Origin: a bacterium
GTDB lineage: Bacteria; Latescibacterota; Latescibacteria; Latescibacterales; Latescibacteraceae
Reading direction: 5' to 3'
Length of the DNA: 64,000 nucleotides
Assembly (NCBI GenBank): GCA_021372535.1
Contig: JAJFUH010000047.1
Location: 1 to 64,000 of the forward strand
Shown here one piece after another: positions 2,607-42,139 of the stretch. Position numbers and translations under genes: made by a program. Below the pieces are notes generated by a model that saw only the letters and a program-made list of their open reading frames with translations, searched no databases and was not told the DNA's origin. Position 1 is the stretch's first letter; the number at the start of each line of letters is the position of its first letter.

Positions 2607-4289
2607 ATGGCCAGCGGCGCCAATTACGTGATTGGAATCGACTTCGGAACCGATTCGGTGCGGTCGCTCATAGTAAATGCCGAAAACGGCGAGGAGCTCG
2701 CAACCGCGGTTCATCATTTCACACGGTGGAAAGAGGGAAAATACTGCAATCCCGGAAAAAACAGGTTCCGTCAGCATCCCCTCGATCATATGGAAGGACT
2801 CGAAAAAACCATACGGGAATCCCTTCGGCAGGCTCCTCGCGGCGCTGCCGAATCGATCAAGGGAATTTCGGTGGATACCACCGGTTCGACCCCGGGGCCG
2901 GTAACCCGCGATGGAACAGCGCTCGGACTTGTTCCCGGATTCGAAGACAATCCCGATGCGCTCTTTGTTCTTTGGAAGGATCATACCGCCGTTGCCGAAG
3001 CTGAGGAGATCAATCATCTGGCGCGCTCATGGGGTGGCGTCGATTTCACCATGTATGTCGGTGGAATCTATTCTTCGGAATGGTTCTGGGCGAAGATGCT
3101 CCATGTTCTCAGAGAGAACAGCCATGTGCGCGAGGCCGCATTCTCATGGATTGAACACTGCGACTGGGTGACCGGTATTCTCACGGGTAACACGGCCCCC
3201 CTCACCATGAAACGGAGCCGTTGCGCGGCGGGTCACAAAGCCATGTGGCATGCATCGTTTGACGGGCTGCCTTCGCAGGATTTCCTCGCCCGTCTCGATC
3301 CGCTACTTTCAGGGATTCGCGAGCGACTCTATACCGAGACCTGTACCTCCGATGTTGTGGCCGGAACATTGTGCGCCGAATGGTCAAAACGGCTCGATCT
3401 TCCGGCAGGAATCCCCGTGGGTGTCGGTGCGTTCGACGCTCATATGGGTGCGGTCGGCGGCGCAATCAGGCCCTATGCCCTCTCCAAGGTTATCGGAACA
3501 TCCACCTGCGATATGCTTGTCGCGCCGATGGAGGATATGGGTGACCGGCTTATACGGGGCATCTGCGGGCAGGTGGACGGCTCGATAATCCCCGGAATGC
3601 TCGGCATGGAAGCAGGACAGTCGGCGTTCGGAGACATCTATGCATGGTTCAGGGATGTGCTTGCCTGGCCACTCCGAAAGGGTATGTGCGGTGACGCCGC
3701 GAATGATGCCCGATCGATTGAACAGGCGGTTGATCGTATCATACCCGGGCTGACCGCAGAAGCGGAAAAACTCCCCATCGACGGGAACGGCATTGTCGCT
3801 CTCGACTGGATGAACGGCAGACGGACACCCGATGCCAACCAGATGCTCAAGGGTGCCATAACGGGTCTCAATCTCGGAAGCTCCGCCCCTGCGATATTCA
3901 GGGCGCTCATCGAGGCGACCGCGTTCGGTTCGAAAAAGATCGTGGAGCGCTTCGAATCCGAGGGAGTACCGATCAAAGAGGTTATCGCACTCGGCGGAGT
4001 AGCGAAAAAGTCGCCCTTTGTCATGCAGGTGCTCGCCGATGTGCTCAACCGGAATATCAGGGTGGCGAAATCCGAGCAGACCTGCGCGCTTGGCGCTGCA
4101 ATGTTTGCAGCTACAGCCGGAGGAATCCACGGGAATGTCGAGAAAGCCATCGAAAAGATGGGAAGCGGATTCGAGCACGAATACAAACCTGATAAGGACC
4201 GTGCCGGACAGTACGGGATACTTTACGAGAGATACGGCAGGCTCGGCGCTTTTATCGAGGATGAAACAACGCGTGGGAAAAGGGGATAA
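2607..4289 (+). CDS. araB: ribulokinase, FGGY family
   Basis: 560 residues, the usual length for AraB. It has the N-terminal phosphate-1 motif IDFGTDSVR (residues 10-18), a DTTGSTP loop, the phosphate-2-like VGVGAFDAHMGAVGGA and the C-terminal adenosine motif ALGGVAKKSP. This is the ribulokinase branch of FGGY kinases, which phosphorylate L-ribulose to L-ribulose-5-phosphate in the cytoplasm. The start is supported by AAGGAGG 7 bases upstream. The stop is 4 bases before araD, so the two are almost certainly co-transcribed and translationally linked. The 287-bp gap upstream is shared with a divergent glycosidase-like gene and would hold the promoter; no regulator gene is adjacent. Confidence 0.92.
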   Translation: MASGANYVIGIDFGTDSVRSLIVNAENGEELATAVHHFTRWKEGKYCNPGKNRFRQHPLDHMEGLEKTIRESLRQAPRGAAESIKGISVDTTGSTPGPVTRDGTALGLVPGFEDNPDALFVLWKDHTAVAEAEEINHLARSWGGVDFTMYVGGIYSSEWFWAKMLHVLRENSHVREAAFSWIEHCDWVTGILTGNTAPLTMKRSRCAAGHKAMWHASFDGLPSQDFLARLDPLLSGIRERLYTETCTSDVVAGTLCAEWSKRLDLPAGIPVGVGAFDAHMGAVGGAIRPYALSKVIGTSTCDMLVAPMEDMGDRLIRGICGQVDGSIIPGMLGMEAGQSAFGDIYAWFRDVLAWPLRKGMCGDAANDARSIEQAVDRIIPGLTAEAEKLPIDGNGIVALDWMNGRRTPDANQMLKGAITGLNLGSSAPAIFRALIEATAFGSKKIVERFESEGVPIKEVIALGGVAKKSPFVMQVLADVLNRNIRVAKSEQTCALGAAMFAATAGGIHGNVEKAIEKMGSGFEHEYKPDKDRAGQYGILYERYGRLGAFIEDETTRGKRG

Positions 4290-4293
4290 TCAC

Positions 4294-5007
4294 ATGACAT
4301 CCCTCAAAGAACTCAGGGAGCGGGTCTGGGAAGCGAATATGGAGCTTCCCCGTCGTAACCTCGTTATCTACACCTTCGGGAACGCGAGCGGCATCGACCG
4401 TGACCGCGGGGTGTTCGCCATCAAACCGAGCGGTGTACCGTACGAGGACCTGACACCGGACAGCATGGTGCTCGTCGACCTCGAAAACACAGTTGTGGAA
4501 GGAACTCTTAATCCCTCGTCGGATACAAAAACCCATACGGTATTATACAGGAATTTCCCATCCATAGGGGGCATCGTCCATACCCATTCGCCATATGCAA
4601 CCGCATGGGCGCAAGCCAAGAAATCCATACCCTGCCTGGGGACTACCCAGGCTGACCACATGCCGGGTAACATCCCATGTACGCTTGTTATGAGCGATGA
4701 ACGGATTCAGCGTGATTATGAGGAAGAAACCGGTAACCAGATTCTCGAATGTTTCCGGAATAACTCATATGAGGACACCGAAATGGTGCTCGTGGCATGC
4801 CACGGACCTTTCACCTGGGGTACAACTCCCGAAAAGGCCGTCTACAACAGCGTGGTACTCGAAGAACTGGCACGTATCGCTTTCATTACTACGCTTATAA
4901 ACCCGGCGGTACAGCCCCTGAAGGAGTCGCTGATTTCCGTGCACTACAGCCGCAAACATGGCACAGGCGCCACCTATGGCCAGACATCACCGAAGAAAGG
5001 AGCATGA
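4294..5007 (+). CDS. araD: L-ribulose-5-phosphate 4-epimerase
   Basis: 237 residues, class II aldolase/adducin fold. The frame is open further upstream inside araB, but the ATG at 4294 gives the normal AraD length and follows the araB stop by 4 bases. Zinc ligands are visible as IVHTHSP (H96 and H98) and the later ACHGPFTWG histidine; GNASG near residue 29 is the phosphate-binding loop of the family. The enzyme turns L-ribulose-5-phosphate into D-xylulose-5-phosphate, completing the route from L-arabinose into the pentose phosphate pathway. It lies between araB and an isomerase gene in one operon. Confidence 0.92.
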   Translation: MTSLKELRERVWEANMELPRRNLVIYTFGNASGIDRDRGVFAIKPSGVPYEDLTPDSMVLVDLENTVVEGTLNPSSDTKTHTVLYRNFPSIGGIVHTHSPYATAWAQAKKSIPCLGTTQADHMPGNIPCTLVMSDERIQRDYEEETGNQILECFRNNSYEDTEMVLVACHGPFTWGTTPEKAVYNSVVLEELARIAFITTLINPAVQPLKESLISVHYSRKHGTGATYGQTSPKKGA

Positions 5008-5011
5008 TAAT

Positions 5012-6493
5012 ATGATCAATATGCCTGAAGTTAAGATGGGAATTGTCGCAGTGAGCCGTGATTGTTTCCCGATTGAGCTGTCGAGAAAACGCAAAAACAT
5101 GGTTGTGGCGGAATGCGCAAAGAAACGCATCCCGCTTGTTGACTGTGAAACGATTGTCGAAAACGAATGCGATGTTCTGAAGGCGCTCGACGAGCTCAAC
5201 GAAAAGGGAGTCAATGCGCTCGTGGTCTATCTCGGTAATTTCGGCCCCGAAGGCCCGCTCTCGATGCTTGCCGAGCTTTTCGACGGCCCTTCCATGCTTG
5301 TCGGCTCGGCGGAAGAGACGAAGAACGATCTCATCGACGGCCGCGGGGATGCTTTCTGCGGGATGCTCAATGCCTCGTACAATATGGCGCTCAGATATGT
5401 CCGTCCCTATATCCCTGAATACCCTGTGGGGCTTCCCGCCGAGATTGCGGATAAAATCGCTGATTTCATGCCGACCGCCCGGGTGCTCCTGGGAGTCGGA
5501 TCACTCAAGATTTTCTCATTCGGTCCCCGGCCGCAGGATTTTCTCGCCTGCAATGCGCCTGTCAAGCCTCTGTACGATCTGGGGATTGAAATCATGGAAA
5601 ACAGCGAGCTCGATCTCCTCGATATATTCAACCGCGCCGACAATCCCGCCGCGATAGAGGCAATCGCCCGTGATATGGCCAAAGAACTCGGCCATGGCAA
5701 CAACTATCCGGATATGCTCATCAAGCTGGCGCGGTACGAGTACGCGCTCCTCAAATTTGTGGAGGACAATCTGGGCGCATCCGAATACGGCATTCTTGCC
5801 AACAAGTGCTGGCCGGCGTTCGAGAAATATTTCGGATTCGTTCCGTGCTATGTCAATTCACGGCTTGCGGGCCGCGGGATACCGGTATCGTGCGAAGTCG
5901 ATATCTACGGCGCCCTGAGCGAATACATGGTCTCGGCGGCGACCGATTTTCCCGCCACGCTGCTCGACATCAACAACACCGTACCACCCGATATGATCGA
6001 GGAGTCACGCGCGGTTGTCGGGGATTATAAACCGACCGACCTGTTCATGGGATTCCACTGCGGAAACACCGCCTCGTCATGCATGGCCACCTTTGCCCTC
6101 AAACACCAGATTATCATGAAACGGCTTATGGAGCCCGAAAGCGAGCCCGACATCACCCGTGGAACCCTCGATGGTATCATCAGACCGGGTGACATCACCA
6201 TTTTCAGGCTTCAGGGCACCGCCGACACCGAACTCCGGTCGTACGTGGCCCAGGGCGAAGTCCTCGATATCGATCCGCGGTCTCACGGGAGCATCGGGGT
6301 ATTCGCCGTCCGCGAAATGGGGCGGTTCTACCGTCATGTGCTCATCGGGAAGCAGTTTCCGCACCATACCGCTGTCGGATTCAAACATGCAGGCAAAGCG
6401 CTCTTCAACGCGGTTACCATGCTCGGTATCGACGACATTTCTCATAACCATCCGCACGGGGTATACTATCCGGACGAAAATCCGTACGGATGA
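5012..6493 (+). CDS. L-fucose/L-arabinose isomerase family protein, the operon's probable arabinose isomerase
   Basis: 493 residues from the ATG at 5012, chosen for its GAAAGGAG site and the 4-base gap after araD. The sequence belongs to the FucI/AraA structural family (N-terminal Rossmann-like strands such as MGIVAVSRD and ALVVYLGNFGPEGP, a central domain with NNTVPPD, and a C-terminal beta domain ending HNHPHGVYYP). It does not look like classical E. coli-type AraA. Its position right after araB and araD argues that it isomerises L-arabinose to L-ribulose, perhaps as a stand-in for a true AraA. The alternative is a fucose-type aldose substrate. It is the last gene before a strong terminator. 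Confidence 0.8.
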   Translation: MINMPEVKMGIVAVSRDCFPIELSRKRKNMVVAECAKKRIPLVDCETIVENECDVLKALDELNEKGVNALVVYLGNFGPEGPLSMLAELFDGPSMLVGSAEETKNDLIDGRGDAFCGMLNASYNMALRYVRPYIPEYPVGLPAEIADKIADFMPTARVLLGVGSLKIFSFGPRPQDFLACNAPVKPLYDLGIEIMENSELDLLDIFNRADNPAAIEAIARDMAKELGHGNNYPDMLIKLARYEYALLKFVEDNLGASEYGILANKCWPAFEKYFGFVPCYVNSRLAGRGIPVSCEVDIYGALSEYMVSAATDFPATLLDINNTVPPDMIEESRAVVGDYKPTDLFMGFHCGNTASSCMATFALKHQIIMKRLMEPESEPDITRGTLDGIIRPGDITIFRLQGTADTELRSYVAQGEVLDIDPRSHGSIGVFAVREMGRFYRHVLIGKQFPHHTAVGFKHAGKALFNAVTMLGIDDISHNHPHGVYYPDENPYG

Positions 6494-6518
6494 TAAAGCG
6501 CAGTCCAACTTCAATTTG

Positions 6519-6547
6519 AAAGGGAAACCCAGCGGTTTCCCTTTTTC
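6519..6547 (+). terminator. intrinsic terminator of the ara operon
   Basis: A perfect 11-bp stem (AAAGGGAAACC paired with GGTTTCCCTTT) with a 4-base loop is followed by a T-rich run, 25 bases after the isomerase stop codon. Confidence 0.9.
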
Positions 6548-6595
6548 TTTTATCTGGCTATTCAATAGAGCGTAAATTTATTTACACGTTAAAGT

Positions 6596-6700
6596 GTCAT
6601 TCCCGTGAAAACGGGAATCCATTATCTATTGTTTATGTATGGCTTATGACAGAGCGATGGTAATACTGGATTCCCAATTCACTGCGTTCTTGGGAATGAC
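6596..6700. repeat. GTCATTCCC inverted-repeat element
   Basis: The left end GTCATTCCCGTGAAAACGGG is itself a hairpin. It is mirrored 100 bases later by TGGATTCCC...GGGAATGAC, so the whole block is a composite palindrome. Sequences of this type (GTCATTCCCG...CGGGAATGAC) are widespread intergenic repeats in environmental bacteria. The rest of the 6494-6840 gap is AT-rich and I see no gene in it. Confidence 0.7.
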
Positions 6701-6840
6701 AATACTTATACAATATATTTGCGATTATAAGCCAATAACTGTCCAGATTGTTTTATTATAATAATACTCTTGTTATAATTCTCAGTATTAGTCTGATAAC
6801 AAACATAGTATTACAATATTATTTACATATACTTAAAAAA

Positions 6841-8013
6841 TTATTCAGAGAGCATATCCCGTATCCTGATCAGCCGCCCGAATTCCGCATCCGGGGGAGT
6901 CGTATCGGAAACTCCCAGAATAAACCGTGACCGTCCCTTCACCGCTTCTATGGTCGTGTCCATGAACCGCTCGAAGTTATCCGCCGGATAATCGGGCATG
7001 AGTATCACGCTCGGTATTCCGCCCCAGACAGTCATGCCTTCTGTTTTCTCAAGCACCTCGTGGATATCGGATTTGGTCATGGGAGCGGTCGCCACCGCTT
7101 CGAGAATGTCGATTCCTGTCCGGCGGTAGAGATCGAAGAGTGCCTGGTTTTCGCCATCGGCATGAATGAGAACATATTTTCCCTGTTCATGAGCCATCCC
7201 GGCAAATCGTACTATCCACGGCATGATATGCTCCTCGTAAAACGGCGGATAGGTGATGGTCTCGTCCATATTGGCGCCGAACATGACAATCTCACCGGGA
7301 GATGCCGCCGCAAGTGGCATCAACTGTTCGAAATAACAGCCGATAGCATCCGCAAGCGCCTTCAGCTTGTCCGGAGTATCCATCATCGCCATGTAAAACA
7401 TATTCATCTCCATGAGGTCGCGCATTATGTACTGCATGGGAGAACCCGGCATGCTGCCGTTTGCAACGACAACGGTATCCTCACCCGTTTCGTCAATCAT
7501 CGCCAGCAATCCCCCGTATGAGGGCTCGACTTCGAGATGCTCGAAAAGGTATATAAGCGGTGCGTAATCCTCGTCACCCTTACATGCGTGTTCTGTAATC
7601 CATGATATGGTTGCACCGGAGGCACGCATTTCTTCAGTTCGTTCGAAGCTCACACGAACTGTGCCCTTCGGCGTCCGGTATGAAACCGTCGTCGTATATT
7701 CGTCAGACTCGATTTTCCGCTCGACACTCCGCAGTTCGACGTGATACGGCACCTGAGGAAGGTGATAGATGCCGATTCCACGGTCGGCCATCTGCGATGG
7801 GTCCCCGGGACGTATATAGTCTGGAACGACGAGATGACCGCCAACGCCGAGCTGCCGCGAGATATCGAGTGGGATCGCGCAGTCATGGTACTCTTCGGGC
7901 AGGGTTCCGCGGTACTGGTGAGCGTTGAACCAGATATCGAAGCGCGGCGCATAGGGAAGTATCTCGGGAATAACACCCTGTACGGTTCTCAGTAGGTCAG
8001 TTTTATGGCCCAT
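6841..8013 (-). CDS. uroporphyrinogen decarboxylase (URO-D) family protein
   Basis: 390 residues, with GGGAGAG upstream of the ATG at 8013. The fold signature is of the URO-D/methyltransferase superfamily: a late YVLIHADGENQ strand at the position where corrinoid methyltransferases carry metal ligands, then GIDILEAVATAPM, MTVWGGIPS and a final SRFILGVSDTTPPD. It is unlikely to be HemE, since heme-pathway neighbours and the HemE N-terminal substrate motif are absent. Relatives of this kind are cobamide-dependent methyltransferases or uncharacterised catabolic enzymes. The substrate is unknown. Confidence 0.75.
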   Translation of the reverse strand: MGHKTDLLRTVQGVIPEILPYAPRFDIWFNAHQYRGTLPEEYHDCAIPLDISRQLGVGGHLVVPDYIRPGDPSQMADRGIGIYHLPQVPYHVELRSVERKIESDEYTTTVSYRTPKGTVRVSFERTEEMRASGATISWITEHACKGDEDYAPLIYLFEHLEVEPSYGGLLAMIDETGEDTVVVANGSMPGSPMQYIMRDLMEMNMFYMAMMDTPDKLKALADAIGCYFEQLMPLAAASPGEIVMFGANMDETITYPPFYEEHIMPWIVRFAGMAHEQGKYVLIHADGENQALFDLYRRTGIDILEAVATAPMTKSDIHEVLEKTEGMTVWGGIPSVILMPDYPADNFERFMDTTIEAVKGRSRFILGVSDTTPPDAEFGRLIRIRDMLSE

Positions 8014-8038
8014 TGTCTCTCTCCCAGAATATTAACAT

Positions 8039-9352
8039 TCAGTCTCGCTCCAATTTCACAACAGTCTCGATATGAAATGTGTGGGGGAACATATCCACCG
8101 GAACAATTCTTTCAACGGAATAACCGTTTTCGGCGAATATTTTAAGATCACGGGCCAGTGTTGCCGGATTACATGAAATATAGACAATAGTGGATGCCCC
8201 AGGCGAACATACAGCTCGAACCGCCTTAAGACCGAGCCCCGTTCGCGGCGGGTCGATAAAAAGCACATCCGTTCCCTTCAGTGAGTCGATCACTTCCTGA
8301 GCTGTGCCCTTGACCGCCCTGAACCGTGAGAATCCTCCGTTCCGGGCATTGTAGATGCTGTCCCTGACCGCCGTTCCGGACACATCGAAGAGAAAAATAT
8401 CTGTATCGGTAGGCGGAACGCCGAGCGAAAACAGCCCCACACCTCCGTATCCGTCGACAAGCTTTTGCCTGGAGTGTACGCCGGTCATTTCAGTGACTAT
8501 ATTCACCAGACTCTCGGTCTGGGGTATATTGATCTGAAAAAAGGAGCGCTCTTCGATTCTGAAGAGTTTTCCGTTCACTGTCTCGTACCGGTGACGGTCG
8601 CCATAGGTTTTCAGGTGACGGAGAGTATTTTCCCCACCGGTAATCCAGAGGCTTACACCGGCAAGATTCTCTATTTCTGTCAGCATGGTCTCTGCCAGCC
8701 CGGAACAGCCAGCTTCCGACCCAAAAACCATGCTGACGAGAGACGAGGGATGATTATGGGCGGCGCGGATGGTCAGCTCACGGATATCGGTGCGTTGAAA
8801 TCGTTCTGTGAGAAGGCTGCGGAGAGCCACAGCGATATCATTTACCCGGTCTTCCGCCACGGGGCAGGATAGAATATCGACAATACGGTGCGACCGTCGC
8901 TCGTTATAACCGAATACGAGGCCCTGCGATGTCCGTTCCACAGGGTATCGCGCCACCGTACGATAATTACGGTCATTCGGTGAGGCATGGCACGGTTCGA
9001 CTTCCGGGAGCTCGATACCGCCGATGCGTTTCAGCGTTTCCGAGACAATCGTCCGTTTCCAGGTGACCTGTGCCGGATAATCAACCGTCTGCCACTGGCA
9101 CCCGCCGCACTGCGAAGCATACGGGCAGAAAGGCTCGACACGATCCGGTGAAGGGGTAACCAGTTCGCGTAACTCCCCTCGCATGAACGAACCCTTGTCC
9201 TGAAGTATTTCGATCCGGGCAACATCCCCCGGAACACCATCGGGCACGAATACCACGCGGCCGTCTGCATGACATACGGCATCCCCGCCATAGGCGAGGG
9301 ATTCGATGGTAACGGTTTCTTCACTATGAGATATTGCCGGGTTCAATTCCAT
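8039..9352 (-). CDS. rlmD: 23S rRNA (uracil-C5)-methyltransferase, RlmD/TrmA family
   Basis: 437 residues. There is an N-terminal TRAM domain (IESLAYGGDAV, VPDGVPGD), then cysteines C76, C82 and C85 of the [4Fe-4S] cluster (PFCPYASQCGGCQW), with a fourth later in DILSCPV. A SAM-dependent methyltransferase domain follows, with the FIDPPR motif and the nucleophile C394 in ISCNPATLARD. It methylates a specific uridine of 23S rRNA. In lineages with a single family member the exact position (U1939 or U747) varies, so the symbol is by closest family. It sits 25 bases upstream of the URO-D gene on the same strand. Confidence 0.88.
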   Translation of the reverse strand: MELNPAISHSEETVTIESLAYGGDAVCHADGRVVFVPDGVPGDVARIEILQDKGSFMRGELRELVTPSPDRVEPFCPYASQCGGCQWQTVDYPAQVTWKRTIVSETLKRIGGIELPEVEPCHASPNDRNYRTVARYPVERTSQGLVFGYNERRSHRIVDILSCPVAEDRVNDIAVALRSLLTERFQRTDIRELTIRAAHNHPSSLVSMVFGSEAGCSGLAETMLTEIENLAGVSLWITGGENTLRHLKTYGDRHRYETVNGKLFRIEERSFFQINIPQTESLVNIVTEMTGVHSRQKLVDGYGGVGLFSLGVPPTDTDIFLFDVSGTAVRDSIYNARNGGFSRFRAVKGTAQEVIDSLKGTDVLFIDPPRTGLGLKAVRAVCSPGASTIVYISCNPATLARDLKIFAENGYSVERIVPVDMFPHTFHIETVVKLERD

Positions 9353-9397
9353 TCCGGATACACCGCCTTGATACGATATGTAAACGATTATTATATG

Positions 9398-34390: not shown

Positions 34391-35572
34391 CTATCGTGTT
34401 TTTGCAGTGGATAAAGGACTTTTACGGAGCATGAAAGTGAGGTATTCAGTACCTATAAATACTAATCCCGCAAGAACTTTCATCCATCTGAACACTTTTT
34501 TGGGAAGTGAAGGTTCATTGTCTTCTCCGGGTTGAAAACGGTCGATATACCCGATGCTGCGCAGCATCCATATCAGAAAACGGATCCTCGACCGTATGCC
34601 GCGCGAAGAATAAAACCGGTACGCGGTGAAACGGTCACGGGCATCAGATAACCATGATTTTCTGTTCCATTGCCTGAGAACATGTACGCACCACGATTCC
34701 CATTTCTCGAGCTCCTGTACATCCGGCACCCGATCGCATATGATACCGAAGTAACGGGAACAGGCATACTGCATACCAGTGAATATACCCGGCATCATAT
34801 CATAGATCGCCCGGTCATGAATGATTTCGTATGACAGAATTCCCCCTGAGTCGATGAGGTAAGCCAGTTCGATAAGCGAGTTCAGCCTTGGGAGATACGG
34901 CCTGTTCAAGGGATCGGAGCGCATGAGAATCCATGCGTGATCGGTATCGGAAGGAACGAGAGCGGGGACTCCCCATAGATTTACGCTCCATGCGTTTTCC
35001 CACATTGACTGCGACCATGTCCATGTTCCGGGGAGCATCGGATACGGCTCCGTGTGAATTTCGACAGCGGCTGCCCCGTCGGGATGTTTGAGAAGCGGTG
35101 CATGGTGTACCTGCCTGATACTCTCCCTGATTTCACCGTATCCTGCAGACCGGAGCACAGTGTCACATTCCGCTGCATCGCCGGCATGCACGAGCAGGTC
35201 GATATCGGCCATGAACCGGTATCCGAACGGAAAGAAACCCCTGATAAGCACCGCCGCGCCTTTCAGGAAGATGACGGGTATATTATGTTTGTCCATGAGT
35301 TCGGCGATGTTCCGCACTTGCAGAAGAAGCGCCGCCGACCGCTGTTTGTTCCGTTCGAATTCGGCGCTCAGGATATCCAGTACTTCCTTCGGGAATGAAG
35401 AGCCCCATTGTTCTATTGCCATGCGGGCCATCCATGGCGCGATTTTGAGCTTTCTCGCCAGGGACAGGAGCTGTTCACTGCTGTGCTGCACCCGCTCGGA
35501 AAGCGTCGAATATTCCGCACGGTCATCGAGGATATTCAACAGATAGCGGAATACGGGCTCACTGTCAACCAT
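34391..35572 (-). CDS. nucleotidyltransferase-family protein (NTP_transf_5-like), last gene of the PqqD/HprK-related cluster
   Basis: 393 residues. The nucleotidyltransferase core is IFLKGAAVLIRG (102-112) followed by RFMADIDLLV (119-128), giving the metal-binding D123-x-D125 pair. VEIHTEP further on supplies a third acidic residue. The rest is helical with a C-terminal hydrophobic stretch (VLAGLVFIGTEYLTFML). Proteins of this family occur beside PqqD-like and HprK-related genes and in some lasso-peptide clusters; the transferred group is not established. Its start overlaps the end of the glycosyltransferase gene by 8 bases, so it is the last gene of the operon. Confidence 0.75.
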   Translation of the reverse strand: MVDSEPVFRYLLNILDDRAEYSTLSERVQHSSEQLLSLARKLKIAPWMARMAIEQWGSSFPKEVLDILSAEFERNKQRSAALLLQVRNIAELMDKHNIPVIFLKGAAVLIRGFFPFGYRFMADIDLLVHAGDAAECDTVLRSAGYGEIRESIRQVHHAPLLKHPDGAAAVEIHTEPYPMLPGTWTWSQSMWENAWSVNLWGVPALVPSDTDHAWILMRSDPLNRPYLPRLNSLIELAYLIDSGGILSYEIIHDRAIYDMMPGIFTGMQYACSRYFGIICDRVPDVQELEKWESWCVHVLRQWNRKSWLSDARDRFTAYRFYSSRGIRSRIRFLIWMLRSIGYIDRFQPGEDNEPSLPKKVFRWMKVLAGLVFIGTEYLTFMLRKSPLSTAKTR

Positions 35573-36683
35573 CGCCGGTTTTCTCCGTTTTTCGCAGTTT
35601 CGCTGTGCACAAATCGTATTTCACACGGTATTCGATTTTTTCGGGATTCATGTCGAGGAGTGTTTTATAGCAGTCTTTCCCCCTGCGGTAATCGCCGAGA
35701 AGAAAGACGCTTTCGCCAAGGGCTTCACGGGCGTAATCGCCGAACAACTTTTCAGGGTAGGACATGGTTTTATCGTAGGTGCCCGTCTCCCCCCACGAGA
35801 TAAGCCGCTCGAAGCAGGGCACGGCTTCAGCGTGTCTGCCCTCGCGCATGAATTCCAGCCCTTGGTACCAGATGACGAAAGGATTTTCAGTGAAAAGCGA
35901 CGCGGCTTCATCGATGAGAGGACGCACAGGTGTGTTCCTTTCACGGGCGAGCTCGATTGCATCCGTGAACGCCACAATATCTGCCGCGGAAGGATGGCTC
36001 TTTCCCCGGACGATGGAAAGCGCCGTTTCAAGCTCGATGTCCGCTCCCCGGGTATCTCCGGCTGTACGCAGACAGAGGGCGTAATGACGATGATTGTTCG
36101 CATTGCCGGGATCGCGTTCCAGTTCCCTGGCAAGAAGCGGCAGATATCTCGTATGTTTCGACGTCTGATCGCCTTCGTATCCATCATGGAGAACAGTCAG
36201 GGGGAGTATCCCGAATTCGGGAGCATCGTTGTGCAGTAATCGTCGAAGCGAGGGGAAAACCGACTCGTGGATGATGCCCTCGAATCTGAGGGCGGGATTA
36301 TTCGGAAAGATACGGAGAGTCCGATACGGCGTCCAGTCCGTGAGGGGACGGTGATATACCTGCCAGCCGGCACCGTTCTTGCCTGCGAGGAGCGACCGGA
36401 CTGAGGTTATATTTTCACAGATCACCCATTCATCGGCATCTATGCTGAAAATCCATCGCCCCGACGCCTGTGGAAGCACAGCATTTCGTGCCTTCGAGAA
36501 ATCATGTTCCCACGGAACCTCAATAATCCGGGCTCCGCGGTCATGTGCAAGGGAAGCGGTGCGGTTATCGGGGCAGGTAATTCCGACGACAATATCTTCC
36601 GCCAGCCCCGTGAGAGAATCGAGGCACCGTTCTAAAGAAGCCTCTTCATCCCGAACTATCAAACAGGCAGAAAGGAGTGGCAT
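35565..36683 (-). CDS. GT2 glycosyltransferase with C-terminal TPR-like repeats
   Basis: 372 residues. GT-A fold family 2: SACLIVRDEEASLERCLDSL at residues 5-24, then FSKARN, and the metal-binding SIDADEW (80-86). From about residue 190 the chain is helical with TPR character (NNHRHYALCLRTAGDTRGADIELETAL, FMREGRHAEAVPCFERLISWG, LLGDYRRGKDCYKTLLDMNP). The same GT2-plus-TPR layout is seen in peptide S/O-glycosyltransferases such as SunS and in many cell-surface transferases. Here it sits 63 bases downstream of a 60-residue peptide gene, which makes the peptide a conceivable acceptor (inference). Confidence 0.78.
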   Translation of the reverse strand: MPLLSACLIVRDEEASLERCLDSLTGLAEDIVVGITCPDNRTASLAHDRGARIIEVPWEHDFSKARNAVLPQASGRWIFSIDADEWVICENITSVRSLLAGKNGAGWQVYHRPLTDWTPYRTLRIFPNNPALRFEGIIHESVFPSLRRLLHNDAPEFGILPLTVLHDGYEGDQTSKHTRYLPLLARELERDPGNANNHRHYALCLRTAGDTRGADIELETALSIVRGKSHPSAADIVAFTDAIELARERNTPVRPLIDEAASLFTENPFVIWYQGLEFMREGRHAEAVPCFERLISWGETGTYDKTMSYPEKLFGDYAREALGESVFLLGDYRRGKDCYKTLLDMNPEKIEYRVKYDLCTAKLRKTEKTGDG

Positions 36684-36746
36684 CGGTTCTCTTTATCCTG
36701 CATATAATCTGAAGCGTTGTCTTTTCAGGCCGGGTTTTCCGCGCCA

Positions 36747-36929
36747 TCAAATCGGGCTCACGGGGGGTGCCGCTACTTTTTTATCCGATGCCGCCTCTGC
36801 GTCCGGTGTGGACAGGCCTTTCATCGAAAACGACTGAACCACCGGAACCGTAAAAACAGTTGCAGCAGCTACCTTTTTCAGGAATGCGCGCTTGCCTGCA
36901 TCGATTTTCTTCAAAGAATCATCCGACAT
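36747..36929 (-). CDS. 60-residue candidate precursor/substrate peptide
   Basis: A strong GAGGAGG site lies 8-10 bases before the ATG, inside the 3' end of the HprK-related gene (19-bp overlap). The peptide has a charged N-terminus, a Tat-like KRAFLKK motif, a hydrophobic stretch (VAAATVFTVPVV), a QSFSMKGLS junction and a small, Ser/Thr/Asp/Ala/Pro-rich tail (TPDAEAASDKKVAAPPVSPI). The layout resembles leader plus core, or a Tat-type exported small protein. Position between a kinase and a glycosyltransferase suggests it is what they modify. Function is not demonstrated, and I know of no named family I can assign with confidence. Confidence 0.7.
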   Translation of the reverse strand: MSDDSLKKIDAGKRAFLKKVAAATVFTVPVVQSFSMKGLSTPDAEAASDKKVAAPPVSPI

Positions 36930-37780
36930 GGCAAACCTCCTCTATCCGCCTGATCTGGTTCAGGCGTTTTTGTGAGTAATTCCGTTATAATTTCCATATT
37001 GCCAGAATATATGGTATAACACGACCGTTGTGATACAAATATACAGAGTTCCTTAATTATATCGGCGGATTTTATGCCCGGGTTGAGAATCTGAGTGAGC
37101 AGATTTTCCACCATTTCAGTCTGGGAACAGGCGCTGATTGCCGGTTTGCCGCCATGATGCGGATTGATGAAAAAAATCCGCTCCGAACCATTCCTGACCG
37201 GCGTTCGTTGTTCCCAGGATATGGCGGGATCATAAAAATAGAACATTCCGCCGTAGTGACTCGGATAGGGAGTGAGCTCGGCGCAGGCGGATTTCAGACC
37301 GGGAACGATATCGAGCGTTTTTTCCTTGAGGTGGAACTTTCGGGGAACAGGACGAAACGAGCCGTTTTTTACGAGGATGTATTCATCTCCAAACACATCG
37401 GCGCCCTGCATCGCAAGGGAGCAGAGAATCGATGTCTTCCCCGCGTTCTTTTCCCCGGATAGTATTCCGAGACTGCCGTCGAACGAGAAACATCCCGCGT
37501 GAATACACAGCTCGTCACGGTGATGAAACAACACAAGCGAATAGAACCATTCATGAAGATTGAGCACCGTCTGCACAGCGGAGGAGAAAAGCGGACTTCT
37601 CAGGTCGTTGAAGAGGATACGGTATCCGTCACCCTCGCTGTTGACGGTAAATACAAATGTGTGCCGGACCGGGCCATGGTCTTTTTCAACAGCGATGTCA
37701 TTGAGCCTGTCCTGAATCTCCGGGCTCTGCGAATCAACGCTGATCGAGCAGTCGAGTATCTGAAATGTCATGACTGACAT
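36911..37780 (-). CDS. HPr-kinase-related (HprK-like) protein
   Basis: 289 residues. Residues 90-135 align with the HprK core: IHAGCFSF with H94, P-loop GEKNAGKT (109-116) and an acidic pair GDE at 131-133. Classical HprK phosphorylates Ser46 of HPr, but this protein lacks the HprK N-terminal domain and a visible HPr partner, and sits in a PqqD/peptide/nucleotidyltransferase operon. HprK-related kinases of this kind (including those in some lasso-peptide clusters) are thought to phosphorylate peptides or other small substrates. The ATG at 37780 has AAAGGG upstream; an ATG at 37771 overlaps the PqqD stop as ATGA. Either way the two are translationally coupled. Confidence 0.8.
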   Translation of the reverse strand: MSVMTFQILDCSISVDSQSPEIQDRLNDIAVEKDHGPVRHTFVFTVNSEGDGYRILFNDLRSPLFSSAVQTVLNLHEWFYSLVLFHHRDELCIHAGCFSFDGSLGILSGEKNAGKTSILCSLAMQGADVFGDEYILVKNGSFRPVPRKFHLKEKTLDIVPGLKSACAELTPYPSHYGGMFYFYDPAISWEQRTPVRNGSERIFFINPHHGGKPAISACSQTEMVENLLTQILNPGIKSADIIKELCIFVSQRSCYTIYSGNMEIITELLTKTPEPDQADRGGLPCRMIL

Positions 37781-38037
37781 TGAACGATCAATCCCTTTTG
37801 GGTCATGTCCTCGAGGATGTTTTTAACCATGTCGGCAGGTGAATTGTCAAGAGTATATAATTCCTGAAAGAGGGAAATGATTTCTGCCTCACTGCTGGTG
37901 CCGGTACATAATTCCCAGACAATCATCGCGGAGTGATTGAGAAAATGAACGGTGTTGCTCTTCGGGTCATAGAGAACGAAGCCATCCTTAACCGTGTTGA
38001 CCTCGATATCTTCGACCTGTCGATATGCCTGTCCCAT
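37768..38037 (-). CDS. PqqD-family peptide-binding (RRE-like) protein
   Basis: 89 residues from the ATG at 38037, the normal PqqD size; the longer frame begins with a TTG and is unlikely. The winged-helix RRE pattern is clear: VKDGFVLYDPKSNTVHFLNHSAMIVWELCTGTSSEAEI then LFQELY and ILEDMTQKGLIV. PqqD-like domains recognise leader peptides and deliver them to modifying enzymes. It is the first gene of the five-gene minus-strand operon. Upstream, 38038-38411 is shared with a divergent lipoprotein gene and would hold the operon promoter. Confidence 0.82.
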   Translation of the reverse strand: MGQAYRQVEDIEVNTVKDGFVLYDPKSNTVHFLNHSAMIVWELCTGTSSEAEIISLFQELYTLDNSPADMVKNILEDMTQKGLIVQCQS

Positions 38038-38411
38038 GGGGAATCCATCGAACGAATTATATATTCTGAGGTGCACTTCGGCCTTCCGGACGGTAACCGC
38101 AGAAGCCCGTACGTATACCAATGAAATTGTTTATAATATATTGTTTTTTATGTCATAAATCAAGCGCTATTTTCCATGCTTCCTCCTGTTTTTATTTAAA
38201 CGGTGTTTATTGAGTATTTTCATGGGATACTCAACGTACAAGAATCTCTTCATAGGGTGTTCATAAAAATGGTTTTGTGCCAGAAATGTGTTTCGTGATG
38301 CATGAATCATGGTTATATATACACTGTCAGAAATCCCCGACTTTTTTTTAATTACATTTGTCTGTAATTTGGTAACTTTTTTTAATAAGCACTGTTGTAA
38401 AGGATGTGGTA

Positions 38412-39053: not shown

Positions 39054-40490
39054 ATGAAACGACGACGGTTTTTGAAGACAATCGAGACGGGTGTTGCCGC
39101 ATATGCCGGAGCCGGGTTGTTTGGATATGCCCTGCCGAATGGCGCCGAAGCGGCCGGAACCGGTGAAGGTATCAGTATTGCGGAGGGTTTATATTACATC
39201 GAAGAAGGAAAGAGCGGTAATACTATCCCCGAAATCAGGCCGGAGATTCTCGATAATCCCCATGCCGTGTTCCTTATCGAAACGCAGGTGGATGCAATCC
39301 GGGATAACCGCGGGTTTTTCCTCGAAGCACAGCCCCAGCTTCAGAATGCCGGTAAAAATGTCGCCGAGCAGGTGTTCACGAAGGGTTCCCGTAAGGGAGG
39401 CTCGACCCTGATAAAGCCGAATTTCACCGATATGCCCGACAGCGTTCTCAGCCCCGTATGCGGAGTCAACACCTCGCCAGACTTCATCGCCGGTTTTGTC
39501 GAGGGGCTCCGCGATCTCGGGAATACGAACGTTATGGTGGGCGAGCGTGGCGGTGGAACGGTGAATCACAGAAAAGCCGGAACGTATGATGTTTTCGACA
39601 AACATGATATCAAGCTGATCGAGGCAAGCTACAAGCGGTTTTCTCATTACGATAAAAACGAGCTTAACTGGAATAAAGTATCCGGGAAGCCCGTCGTATG
39701 GAAAAATATACCAACATTCCGTCCCATCGGCGATTCCGACAATCTCTTCATCAACATGCCGAAGCTCAAATGTCATAATCTTGGGTTGACGACGCTGGCA
39801 ATAAAAAATCTTCAGGGCAGCGTTCCTGCCGGGTACGGGCATTACTGTAACCAGTGGGCGGCGCTCGAATATCTCTGCAAAGATTCGTATAACATCGATT
39901 TCAAGCGTGACTTTGTCGAGAACTATTACCAGAACGTAGAGGCAGCCTTCCTCAAGCACCGTGCCGCCGGTTTCAAATACTGGGATTATGAAAACGCATA
40001 TCCGGTATACGAGAAAAAAGGCGGATGGGAAACATTCGGTAAAATCAGGAACGATGTGGAAAAGGTAAAGGAATTCATGAACGGCATCCCGGCGAACCTC
40101 ATGTGGGATGAACAGTGGTGTCAGCGGGCTGTGGATTCGGCGCTTGCCATAAAACCCGGGATAAATATCATCGAAGGCGTTATCGGGAGGGACGGCAGCG
40201 GCTTCAATGTCGGGAAGGACGAGCTTGCGAATATCGTGGTTGTGGGCCTGTCTCCTCTTGAGGTCGATGCCGTGGGCTCGTACGTCATGGGTCAGAATCC
40301 ATGCGAACTCCATTATACGAGGATTGCGAACGAGCGGGGACTCGGTGAGAACAATCCGGAAAAGATTGCGATCTATTGGATCAGAAATAATGAAATCGTT
40401 CCCCTTAAATCACTCACGGAAATCAGGCGAACCCCCCTCGGCGTCAACATCCATACCTGGGCAGAAACGGGCAAACGTCTTTTCTGGTAA
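39054..40490 (+). CDS. Tat-exported DUF362 protein, paralogue 1
   Basis: 478 residues. Tat signal RRRFLK near the N-terminus with a hydrophobic stretch ending NGAEAAG. The DUF362 core is recognisable: STLIKPNFTDMP, DFIAGFVEGLRDLGNTNVMVGER, NMPKLKCHNLGLTTLAIKN, and GVIGRDGSGFN. DUF362 proteins include ferredoxin-like and uncharacterised enzymes; no Fe-S cysteine cluster is apparent in this version. It is followed 212 bases later by a close paralogue of the same length (40703-42139). The two share most motifs, such as NIPTFRPIGD/NIPTYRPIGD and GVNIHTWAETGKRLFW, so they arose by tandem duplication. A good GAGGAG site precedes the ATG. Confidence 0.85.
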   Translation: MKRRRFLKTIETGVAAYAGAGLFGYALPNGAEAAGTGEGISIAEGLYYIEEGKSGNTIPEIRPEILDNPHAVFLIETQVDAIRDNRGFFLEAQPQLQNAGKNVAEQVFTKGSRKGGSTLIKPNFTDMPDSVLSPVCGVNTSPDFIAGFVEGLRDLGNTNVMVGERGGGTVNHRKAGTYDVFDKHDIKLIEASYKRFSHYDKNELNWNKVSGKPVVWKNIPTFRPIGDSDNLFINMPKLKCHNLGLTTLAIKNLQGSVPAGYGHYCNQWAALEYLCKDSYNIDFKRDFVENYYQNVEAAFLKHRAAGFKYWDYENAYPVYEKKGGWETFGKIRNDVEKVKEFMNGIPANLMWDEQWCQRAVDSALAIKPGINIIEGVIGRDGSGFNVGKDELANIVVVGLSPLEVDAVGSYVMGQNPCELHYTRIANERGLGENNPEKIAIYWIRNNEIVPLKSLTEIRRTPLGVNIHTWAETGKRLFW

Positions 40491-40702
40491 TATGGTTTAC
40501 GAAAATACTATCGACGCTCCGGGGAATGAGTGTAAAGAGAGTGTCGTAATGGTTACATTATATTCTTATAAAAATCAAGTATATAAATTGTTTCCCGAGA
40601 CTTTTGCCTTGAAACAACTTTGATTTCCACTGAATAATTGTTATATTTAAAAGCTGAATTGTAATTATTAAAAAAGCAAAAAAAGAATTATGAGGAGGAA
40701 CG

Positions 40703-42139
40703 ATGCAGCGAAGAGAATTTATACAGAAGACCGCAGTCGGTTCCACTGCTCTGGCCGGTGCCGGGCTGTTCGGGTATGCCATGCCGATGCCCGCGGAAGC
40801 TTTCGGAACAGGCGGCGGAATTGATGTCGCGGAAGGTCTCTCCATTCTGGAACAGGGTAAGGAAAAAAATATCATGCCTGAAATCAGGCCTGAGATTCGT
40901 AATAATCCACGAGCGGTATTCCTGATTGAAACGCATGTCGATTCCCCGCGCGACGAACGGGGCTTTTTTACCGAAGCACGTCCCCAGCTCGAAGAAACGG
41001 GGAAAAATGTCGTACCCCGGATTTTTGTAAAAGGCTCGAAAAAAGGTGGTTCGACCATAGTGAGGCCGAACTTCACCACAGTGCCTGACGATGTTTTGAG
41101 CCCGGTCTGCGGCATCAACACATCGTGCGATTTCATTGCCGGTTTTATCGAGGGACTCCGTGAGCTCGGCAATACGAATGTGATCACCTCCGCTCGGGGA
41201 ACTTCGGTTCAGAATCACCGGAAAAACGGTATCTACGATGTATTCGACAGGCATAATATAAACCTGATAGAAGCGAATTACCGTCGGTTTTCCGATTATG
41301 AAAAGACCGATCTCAACTGGCACAAAGTCCCCGGAAAGCCCATGGTCTGGAAAAATATCCCGACATACCGTCCCATCGGCGACAAAGACAATTTCTTCAT
41401 CAACATGCCGAAGCTCAAATGCCATAATCTGGGTCTGACGACGCTTTCCATTAAAAATCTCCAGGGAGTTGTACCCACCGGTTACGGCCATTACTGCAAT
41501 AGCTGGGCATCACTCGAATTTTTGTGCAAACGATCTTATATGGTCAATTTCGACCGTGATTTCGTAAAGGATTATTATCAGAATGTGGAGTCCGCATTCC
41601 TCAAACACCGTGCCGAGGGATTCAAACACTGGGATATCGAGAATGCCTATCCCGTCTATGAAAAAAAGGGCGGATGGGAGGCCTTTAAAAAGGTCAAGGA
41701 CAATCCCGATGATTTCAAGGAATTTACGAAAGACCTGCCGTCGCAGCTCATGTGGGATGAGCAGTGGACGCAGCGTGCGCTCGATTCCGCCTCGGCGATT
41801 ATCCCCGATATCAATATAATCGAGGGTGTCATCGGCAGGGACGGCAGCGGATTCAATACCGGCAGGGATGAAATCTGCGATGTACTCGTTATCGGTCTGT
41901 CAAAAGTCGAGGTTGACTCCATCGGCTCTTACATCATGGGTCATGATCCTGCGCAGCTTCCCTATACGAGGGTAGCAAGAGAGCGCGGGCTCGGCGAATG
42001 CGACCCGTCCAAGATCGACCTCTACTGGATACATGAAAACGAAGTGACTCCCATCAGGGACCTTGCCGAGATAAAACGCACGCCGCTCGGTGTCAACATG
42101 CATACCTGGGCCGAGACCGGTAAACGGCTCTTCTGGTAA
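40703..42139 (+). CDS. Tat-exported DUF362 protein, paralogue 2
   Basis: 478 residues, equal in length to its tandem neighbour. It has the same DUF362 framework (TIVRPNFTTVP, DFIAGFIEGLRELGNTNVITSARG, NMPKLKCHNLGLTTLSIKN, GVIGRDGSGFNTG, ending AETGKRLFW). Its Tat signal is less canonical (MQRREFIQKTAV). Positions that differ from copy 1, such as SARGTSVQNH versus GERGGGTVNH, point to separate substrates. AGGAGG lies upstream of the ATG. A strong terminator follows the gene, so the pair is probably one unit with the intervening 212 bases as a spacer. Confidence 0.85.
   Translation: MQRREFIQKTAVGSTALAGAGLFGYAMPMPAEAFGTGGGIDVAEGLSILEQGKEKNIMPEIRPEIRNNPRAVFLIETHVDSPRDERGFFTEARPQLEETGKNVVPRIFVKGSKKGGSTIVRPNFTTVPDDVLSPVCGINTSCDFIAGFIEGLRELGNTNVITSARGTSVQNHRKNGIYDVFDRHNINLIEANYRRFSDYEKTDLNWHKVPGKPMVWKNIPTYRPIGDKDNFFINMPKLKCHNLGLTTLSIKNLQGVVPTGYGHYCNSWASLEFLCKRSYMVNFDRDFVKDYYQNVESAFLKHRAEGFKHWDIENAYPVYEKKGGWEAFKKVKDNPDDFKEFTKDLPSQLMWDEQWTQRALDSASAIIPDINIIEGVIGRDGSGFNTGRDEICDVLVIGLSKVEVDSIGSYIMGHDPAQLPYTRVARERGLGECDPSKIDLYWIHENEVTPIRDLAEIKRTPLGVNMHTWAETGKRLFW

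Follow-up and report, generated by a model that had tools for sequence, protein, structure and literature searches.

A conserved five-gene cassette in a Latescibacteraceae genome suggests an undescribed peptide-modification system with a signal-peptide-like precursor

A stretch of 64,000 nucleotides of contig JAJFUH010000047.1 from a bacterium of the Latescibacteraceae (the window hereafter, at its full length) carries a compact cassette of five minus-strand genes encoding a PqqD-like protein, a kinase resembling HPr kinase, a peptide of 60 aa, a GT2 glycosyltransferase with a TPR tail and an NTP_transf_5 nucleotidyltransferase-like protein. Comparison with related loci gives good support to the view that this set is a real and apparently undescribed peptide-modification system. 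The first-pass annotation of the window had proposed such a system, with an architecture unlike that of lasso-peptide clusters, and this core claim is supported by the conservation of the peptide, a gene order maintained across phyla, gene fusions and tandem peptide arrays. The cassette is probably a tailoring system resembling those of the ribosomally synthesized and post-translationally modified peptides (RiPPs), making an exported phosphoglycosylated peptide by the steps proposed below. Its features are the following, in the direction of transcription.

37768..38037, minus strand: PqqD-like gene, 89 aa from the ATG; proposed leader-binding chaperone of the RiPP recognition element (RRE) fold family
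36911..37780, minus strand: HPr-kinase-like gene, 289 aa; proposed peptide serine kinase
37433..37456, minus strand: Walker A motif (P-loop) GEKNAGKT, kinase residues 109-116, from sequence and alignments
36936..36942, minus strand: Shine-Dalgarno sequence gaggagg of the peptide gene, with a 6-base spacing to the ATG, from sequence
36747..36929, minus strand: precursor-like peptide gene, 60 aa, MSDDSLKKIDAGKRAFLKKVAAATVFTVPVVQSFSMKGLSTPDAEAASDKKVAAPPVSPI; homologues adjoin HprK genes
36873..36893, minus strand: twin-basic segment KRAFLKK, peptide residues 13-19, from alignments
36813..36854, minus strand: conserved hydrophobic segment FTVPVVQSFSMKGL, peptide residues 26-39, from alignment
36792..36800, minus strand: AEA (AxA), candidate signal peptidase site, followed by the tail ASDKKVAAPPVSPI
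35565..36683, minus strand: GT2 glycosyltransferase with TPR tail, 372 aa, PF00535 and TPR
34391..35572, minus strand: NTP_transf_5 nucleotidyltransferase-like gene, 393 aa, with LKG, DID and VEIH motifs, PF14907

The five genes, their overlaps (13, 19 and 8 bases), the 63-base gap between the peptide and glycosyltransferase genes and the P-loop of the kinase all lie where the first-pass annotation had placed them. Translation of the peptide is likely, since a strong Shine-Dalgarno sequence precedes its start. The start of the PqqD-like gene is uncertain, an in-frame TTG at 38121 being also possible.

The conservation of the peptide next to other PqqD/HprK pairs was a point on which the first-pass annotation had staked its proposal. 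Kinase loci were collected by searching plasmids and genomes with NTP_transf_5 and kinase profiles; a contig scan with two NTP_transf_5 sequences returned no matches, and a four-sequence profile used on genome contigs was effective. Loci were recovered from Sinorhizobium, Alteromonadaceae, Flavobacteriaceae, Chromatiales, Gemmatimonas and others, many of them adjoining a short signal-like peptide and many others having no identifiable short peptide. Of the 24 alphaproteobacterial kinase loci, 12 contained a short open reading frame (ORF) matched by a peptide profile trained without Alphaproteobacteria; the 100 control segments of 4 kb, drawn from the genomes of the kinase hits, contained none (Fisher p 1.7e-10). 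When the window peptide alone was searched with phmmer against 8,909 short ORFs from the kinase loci, the control segments and the window, it retrieved itself first and then, as the next 12 best matches, exclusively peptides located beside HprK-like genes; ten of these 12 had E < 2e-4, the two from its own phylum being weaker (0.003 and 0.07). A search with a profile of the peptide only covered 64 genomes from the phylum, 385 from the class of genome G551 and 398 from the order of genome G537, and every match with E < 1e-10 sits in a kinase cassette (three in the phylum of the window and four genomes in the order of G537), weak matches in two genomes (G1014 and G040) lying outside cassettes. 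This search also uncovered a complete cassette in genome G1188, which is an independent case because several other sequences were already in the profile. Homologues of the peptide thus do adjoin other PqqD/HprK pairs, and the refutation that the first-pass annotation had foreseen on this point fails.

The complete set including GT2-TPR recurs in four genomes of Rhizobiales, the order of Ensifer (loci L194, L195, L196 and L217). Gene order in two of them is that of the window, except for the inverted NTP_transf_5 gene:

L194: PqqD 7563-7820, kinase 6715-7566, peptide 6377-6556, GT2-TPR 5170-6306, convergent NTP_transf_5 3876-5123
L217: PqqD 9083-9367, kinase 8265-9098, peptide 8052-8228, GT2-TPR 6887-8095, convergent NTP_transf_5 5759-6910

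In the other two loci, tandem peptides (three in L195, seven in L196) come after the kinase, and GT2-TPR and a convergent NTP_transf_5 gene come after these, so that a whole peptide array stands beside a single kinase and a single GT2. The GT2-TPR gene directly follows the peptide in all five full cassettes; the window protein shares 35% identity with that of L194 over 354 residues without gaps and 31% with that of L196, and among the loci scanned a GT2-TPR profile matched in these full cassettes only. The kinase tree places the window kinase with those of the GT2 cassettes and a paralogue from G551 (99/99 support) and away from the kinase of a second cassette in the window genome; the branch of the window kinase is long, and its exact place is therefore unsure. 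Gene set and tree fit a cassette travelling as a unit between phyla.

That second cassette, a paralogous set, was found by searching the window genome (5.35 Mb, 236 contigs):

L003 (contig G000:C57): peptide 5738-5914, PqqD 6113-6385, kinase 6394-7221, NTP_transf_5 7218-8372

Its peptide aligns with the window peptide, and a third cassette with the same genes occurs in another genus of the family (L044). The existence of the second cassette, like the signal-like character of the peptide, goes beyond what the first-pass annotation had described. L003 (5738-8372) lies just downstream of a gene whose 961-aa product, a right-handed beta-helix protein, matches a type IX sorting domain below the cutoff. 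The looser form, comprising PqqD, HprK, NTP_transf_5 and a short signal-like peptide, extends to Proteobacteria, Bacteroidota and Gemmatimonadota, and most kinase loci include an NTP_transf_5 gene. PqqD and kinase form a single fusion protein in Sinorhizobium and elsewhere; the cassette on pSymB of Sinorhizobium meliloti consists of this fusion, NTP_transf_5 and the peptide. Gemmatimonas has a PqqD domain joined to the peptide, one such protein ending in SRRDVVRRLTLAGAATVALPVVFSVLAPTPAMAASGG, with the kinase gene adjoining; PqqD is therefore tied to both kinase and peptide. Sequence comparison thereby establishes that the genes form a set conserved as a unit, that the peptide is conserved, and that PqqD is linked with kinase and peptide. 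In other families of the phylum, and in one of them in many members, a distant HprK-like gene is located between an SMC-like gene and CTP synthase (L045 to L055); with neither PqqD nor peptide nearby, these genes were treated as a separate family and left aside.

Judged from its sequence, the window peptide is signal-peptide-like, with a KR/RR pair, a hydrophobic stretch and an AxA end. R14 is invariant in the peptide alignment, as are F26, P29, F34 and L39; the twin-basic pair is KR in the window peptide and RR in most relatives, and the window, L003 and L044 peptides share the pattern KR/RR..[LI]KK, F..P....F....L and a small-residue AxA-like end. The AxA position is retained in most cassette peptides as a candidate cleavage site. 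Among 42 tails, 36 have a serine no more than six residues beyond AxA, where shuffling gives an expectation of 17.5; this count takes in related and duplicate sequences and is to be read as a lead rather than a probability. The candidate modified site named here is accordingly a serine that closely follows AxA, which in the window peptide is S48. A sub-cutoff match to TIGR01409 occurs in L044. The signal-like architecture, together with TatC, of the twin-arginine translocation (Tat) pathway, which is encoded in the window genome, suggests export of the peptide.

The enzymes are assigned with unequal precision. The first-pass annotation had named PqqD, NTP_transf_5 and HprK_rel_A-type families: the first two stand, the PqqD-like protein (PF05402, 1.5e-9, 38.5 vs 23.4 bits) and the NTP_transf_5 protein (PF14907, 3e-25, 89.7 vs 31.2 bits) exceeding the Pfam gathering cutoffs, whereas the kinase falls far under the cutoff of TIGR04352 (HprK-related kinase A; 9e-12, 44.6 of 200 bits), its best NCBIfam match. 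It matches no Pfam HPr kinase family, and the plasmids searched hold no match to it. Its AlphaFold model (predicted local distance difference test, pLDDT, 81.5) matches phosphoenolpyruvate (PEP) carboxykinase (PEPCK) at 6e-7 and HPr kinase 1kkl at 5e-4. PEP carboxykinases and HPr kinase belong to one fold superfamily, and by predicted fold and Walker A motif the window kinase is a member of this HprK/PEPCK superfamily; H94, G114, K115, D132 and K152 are invariant in the kinase alignment. The GT2-TPR protein combines a GT2 domain (PF00535, 1.5e-8) with TPR in Pfam, its nearest solved structures being GmaR (4e-19, by sequence), 7msk and the SunS family, which puts it closest to glycosyltransferases of peptides or proteins. 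The NTP_transf_5 model is of low confidence (pLDDT 64); its matched part resembles the ANT(2'')-Ia type and, more weakly, FKRP.

We infer from these comparisons that the peptide may be phosphorylated, nucleotidylated and glycosylated; the enzyme-substrate relations, order of steps, modified site, sugar, export and biological role are put forward on the same footing. The 60-aa peptide would be the precursor, with a signal-peptide-like N-terminal half (KR/RR..LKK, F..P.V.SF.M..L, AxA) and a short tail containing Ser, Pro and Gly. The PqqD-like protein would bind the N-terminal half and deliver the peptide to the enzymes. The HprK-like kinase would phosphorylate a hydroxyl of the peptide, most likely that of the serine just after AxA, after which NTP_transf_5 and the SunS/GmaR-like GT2-TPR protein would attach and extend a sugar. 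Genes for GT10, Anp1, Mannosyl_trans3, GT4 and Stealth at the sides of the Rhizobiales cassettes suggest that the glycan is elaborate. The product would leave the cytoplasm by Tat or Sec, the leader being removed there.

Several observations weigh against this proposal. The left-out peptide profile misses half of the alphaproteobacterial test loci (12/24), and the same left-out design was weak in the order Alteromonadales (3/29, p 0.01) and failed in Flavobacteriales (0/7 loci). Most looser cassettes are without GT2-TPR, and no dedicated protease or exporter is found in the cassette. In the window peptide the twin-basic pair reads KR instead of RR and no Tat model matches, for which reason it is called a possible Tat substrate at most. 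In some cassette peptides (L162) hardly any tail follows AxA, and a fixed modified serine at this position is therefore not universal.

In loci of the order Alteromonadales, the place of the short peptide is taken by longer proteins whose N-terminus is similar. Kinase-NTP_transf_5 pairs of Alteromonadales (L125, L127, L131, L139 and L142) adjoin proteins of 200-300 aa having the same Tat-like N-terminus and an RSPGY/SPGW-like motif in place of the short peptide. A stand-alone 132-aa protein in L219 (3023-3421; RRDFLKK..VAPIMITFQMDD, with an Asp- and Lys-rich tail) has no kinase adjoining within the fragment read.

Alternatively, the enzymes could build or decorate a surface polysaccharide or a lipid-linked glycan, the peptide being exported as an accessory, be it anchor, primer or regulator, and itself remaining unphosphorylated. 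This reading, which we regard as unlikely, draws on the surroundings of the loci: looser cassettes L009, L010, L011 and L043 are found among ExeA-like ATPases, WecA-like transferases and other polysaccharide-locus genes, and the genes at the sides of the Rhizobiales cassettes include several for glycosyltransferases and one for a Stealth sugar-phosphotransferase. It is opposed by the PqqD-peptide fusion of Gemmatimonas, by the tandem duplication of the peptide beside one kinase and one GT2, and by the fact that characterised PqqD-family proteins bind peptides, namely leader peptides (PMC7470986). Polysaccharide-type loci of other families of the phylum (L010, L011, L012 and L043) also hold a gene for a radical S-adenosylmethionine (SAM) protein with a C-terminal PqqD-like domain, adjoining the HprK-like gene.

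It is still less probable that the cassette makes a signalling or antimicrobial peptide for export on which only the kinase acts, with NTP_transf_5 and GT2-TPR acting elsewhere: the restriction of GT2-TPR to a minority of cassettes and the resemblance of the multi-copy arrays to secreted peptide families would fit, but the constant position of GT2-TPR directly after the peptide in the full cassettes and the presence of NTP_transf_5 with most kinase loci would not. A function as the HPr kinase of the phosphotransferase system, with unrelated neighbours, is very improbable. The genome does encode an HPr protein and the predicted fold of the kinase is HprK/PEPCK, but the kinase has no match to the HPr kinase/phosphorylase model TIGR00679, the HPr gene is located on a different contig, together with those for EI and sugar permease, and PqqD and peptide remain the neighbours of the kinase across phyla; HPr was consequently judged an unlikely substrate. 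Finally, a toxin-antitoxin or defence module of nucleotidyltransferase and kinase (MenT/TakA-like), evoked by the fold-level likeness of the weak NTP_transf_5 model to the MenT and TglT toxins, is hardly credible given that it has no place for a PqqD protein, a signal-like peptide or a glycosyltransferase, and an anti-phage role was rejected as PADLOC matches none of the four cassette enzymes.

The proposed tailoring of the peptide has its closest parallel in pseudomycoidin (and, for phosphorylation, paeninodin), where a PqqD-like protein, an HPr-kinase homologue and a nucleotidyltransferase serve one ribosomal peptide. In pseudomycoidin, the HPr-kinase homologue PsmK phosphorylates the C-terminal serine and the nucleotidyltransferase PsmN is needed for the addition of one or two hexoses to the phosphate, possibly acting as the glycosyltransferase itself (PMC9266682, PMC8498205). 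Unlike in these phosphoglycosylated lasso peptides, the window precursor is signal-peptide-like, a GT2-TPR protein is present and the kinase is only remotely similar. As the first-pass annotation had remarked, the lasso B2 protease and cyclase (lactam synthetase) are missing, none being found among the window proteins scanned with Pfam, a subset of its ORFs. The HPr-rel-A system of NCBIfam (TIGR04352 with TIGR04353) draws on the same superfamilies, but both window proteins stay under the curated cutoffs (for PqqD_rel_X, TIGR04353, 27.6 of 35 bits), and the name "HprK-related kinase" appears in none of the open-access papers listed by the search. The glycosyltransferases of glycocins (SunS/ThuS, sublancin) also join a GT2 domain to a C-terminal extension and act on a ribosomal peptide; the window protein however misses the cutoff of the SunS model TIGR04195 (48.6 of 350) and the window peptide contains no cysteine. 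Kinase, PqqD and NTP_transf_5 are not known to belong to glycocin clusters. GmaR, a flagellin glycosyltransferase and anti-repressor with the nearest solved GT2 domain by sequence, differs in gene context, no flagellin being present at the window cassette. The PqqD-like chaperone is shared with pyrroloquinoline quinone (PQQ) biosynthesis (PqqD with PqqE) and SynChlorMet (ScmC, ScmD), ScmC being a kinase-like relative of some cassette kinases; in contrast to both, the window cassette has no radical SAM enzyme and its PqqD falls below the cutoffs of the PqqD_rel and ScmD models. A search confined to open-access papers found no description of such a cassette.

Near the cassette, a five-codon ORF (MENSA, 38160-38177) with a strong Shine-Dalgarno sequence lies 120 bases before the PqqD gene and could be a leader ORF or mark the uncertain PqqD start. 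Divergent from the cassette, 39054-42139 encodes two tandem 478-aa DUF362 proteins with Tat-like N-termini.

Many genome annotations list HPr-kinase-like, stand-alone PqqD and NTP_transf_5 proteins for which no partner is known. The present data give them a candidate substrate, a short signal-like peptide that is usually missed or called hypothetical, and the minimal five-gene set is suitable for expression and assay. More tentatively, and at somewhat less than an even chance, these peptides may form an undescribed class of ribosomal peptides spread over several phyla, in which the signal-peptide-like leader would also serve as the PqqD recognition sequence and the product, after phosphorylation by the HprK-like kinase and completion by NTP_transf_5 and GT2-TPR, would be an exported phosphoglycopeptide, possibly a peptide-borne primer for a surface glycan. 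If the proposal is true, peptide phosphoglycosylation would reach beyond lasso peptides and would be tied to export and possibly to surface glycans.

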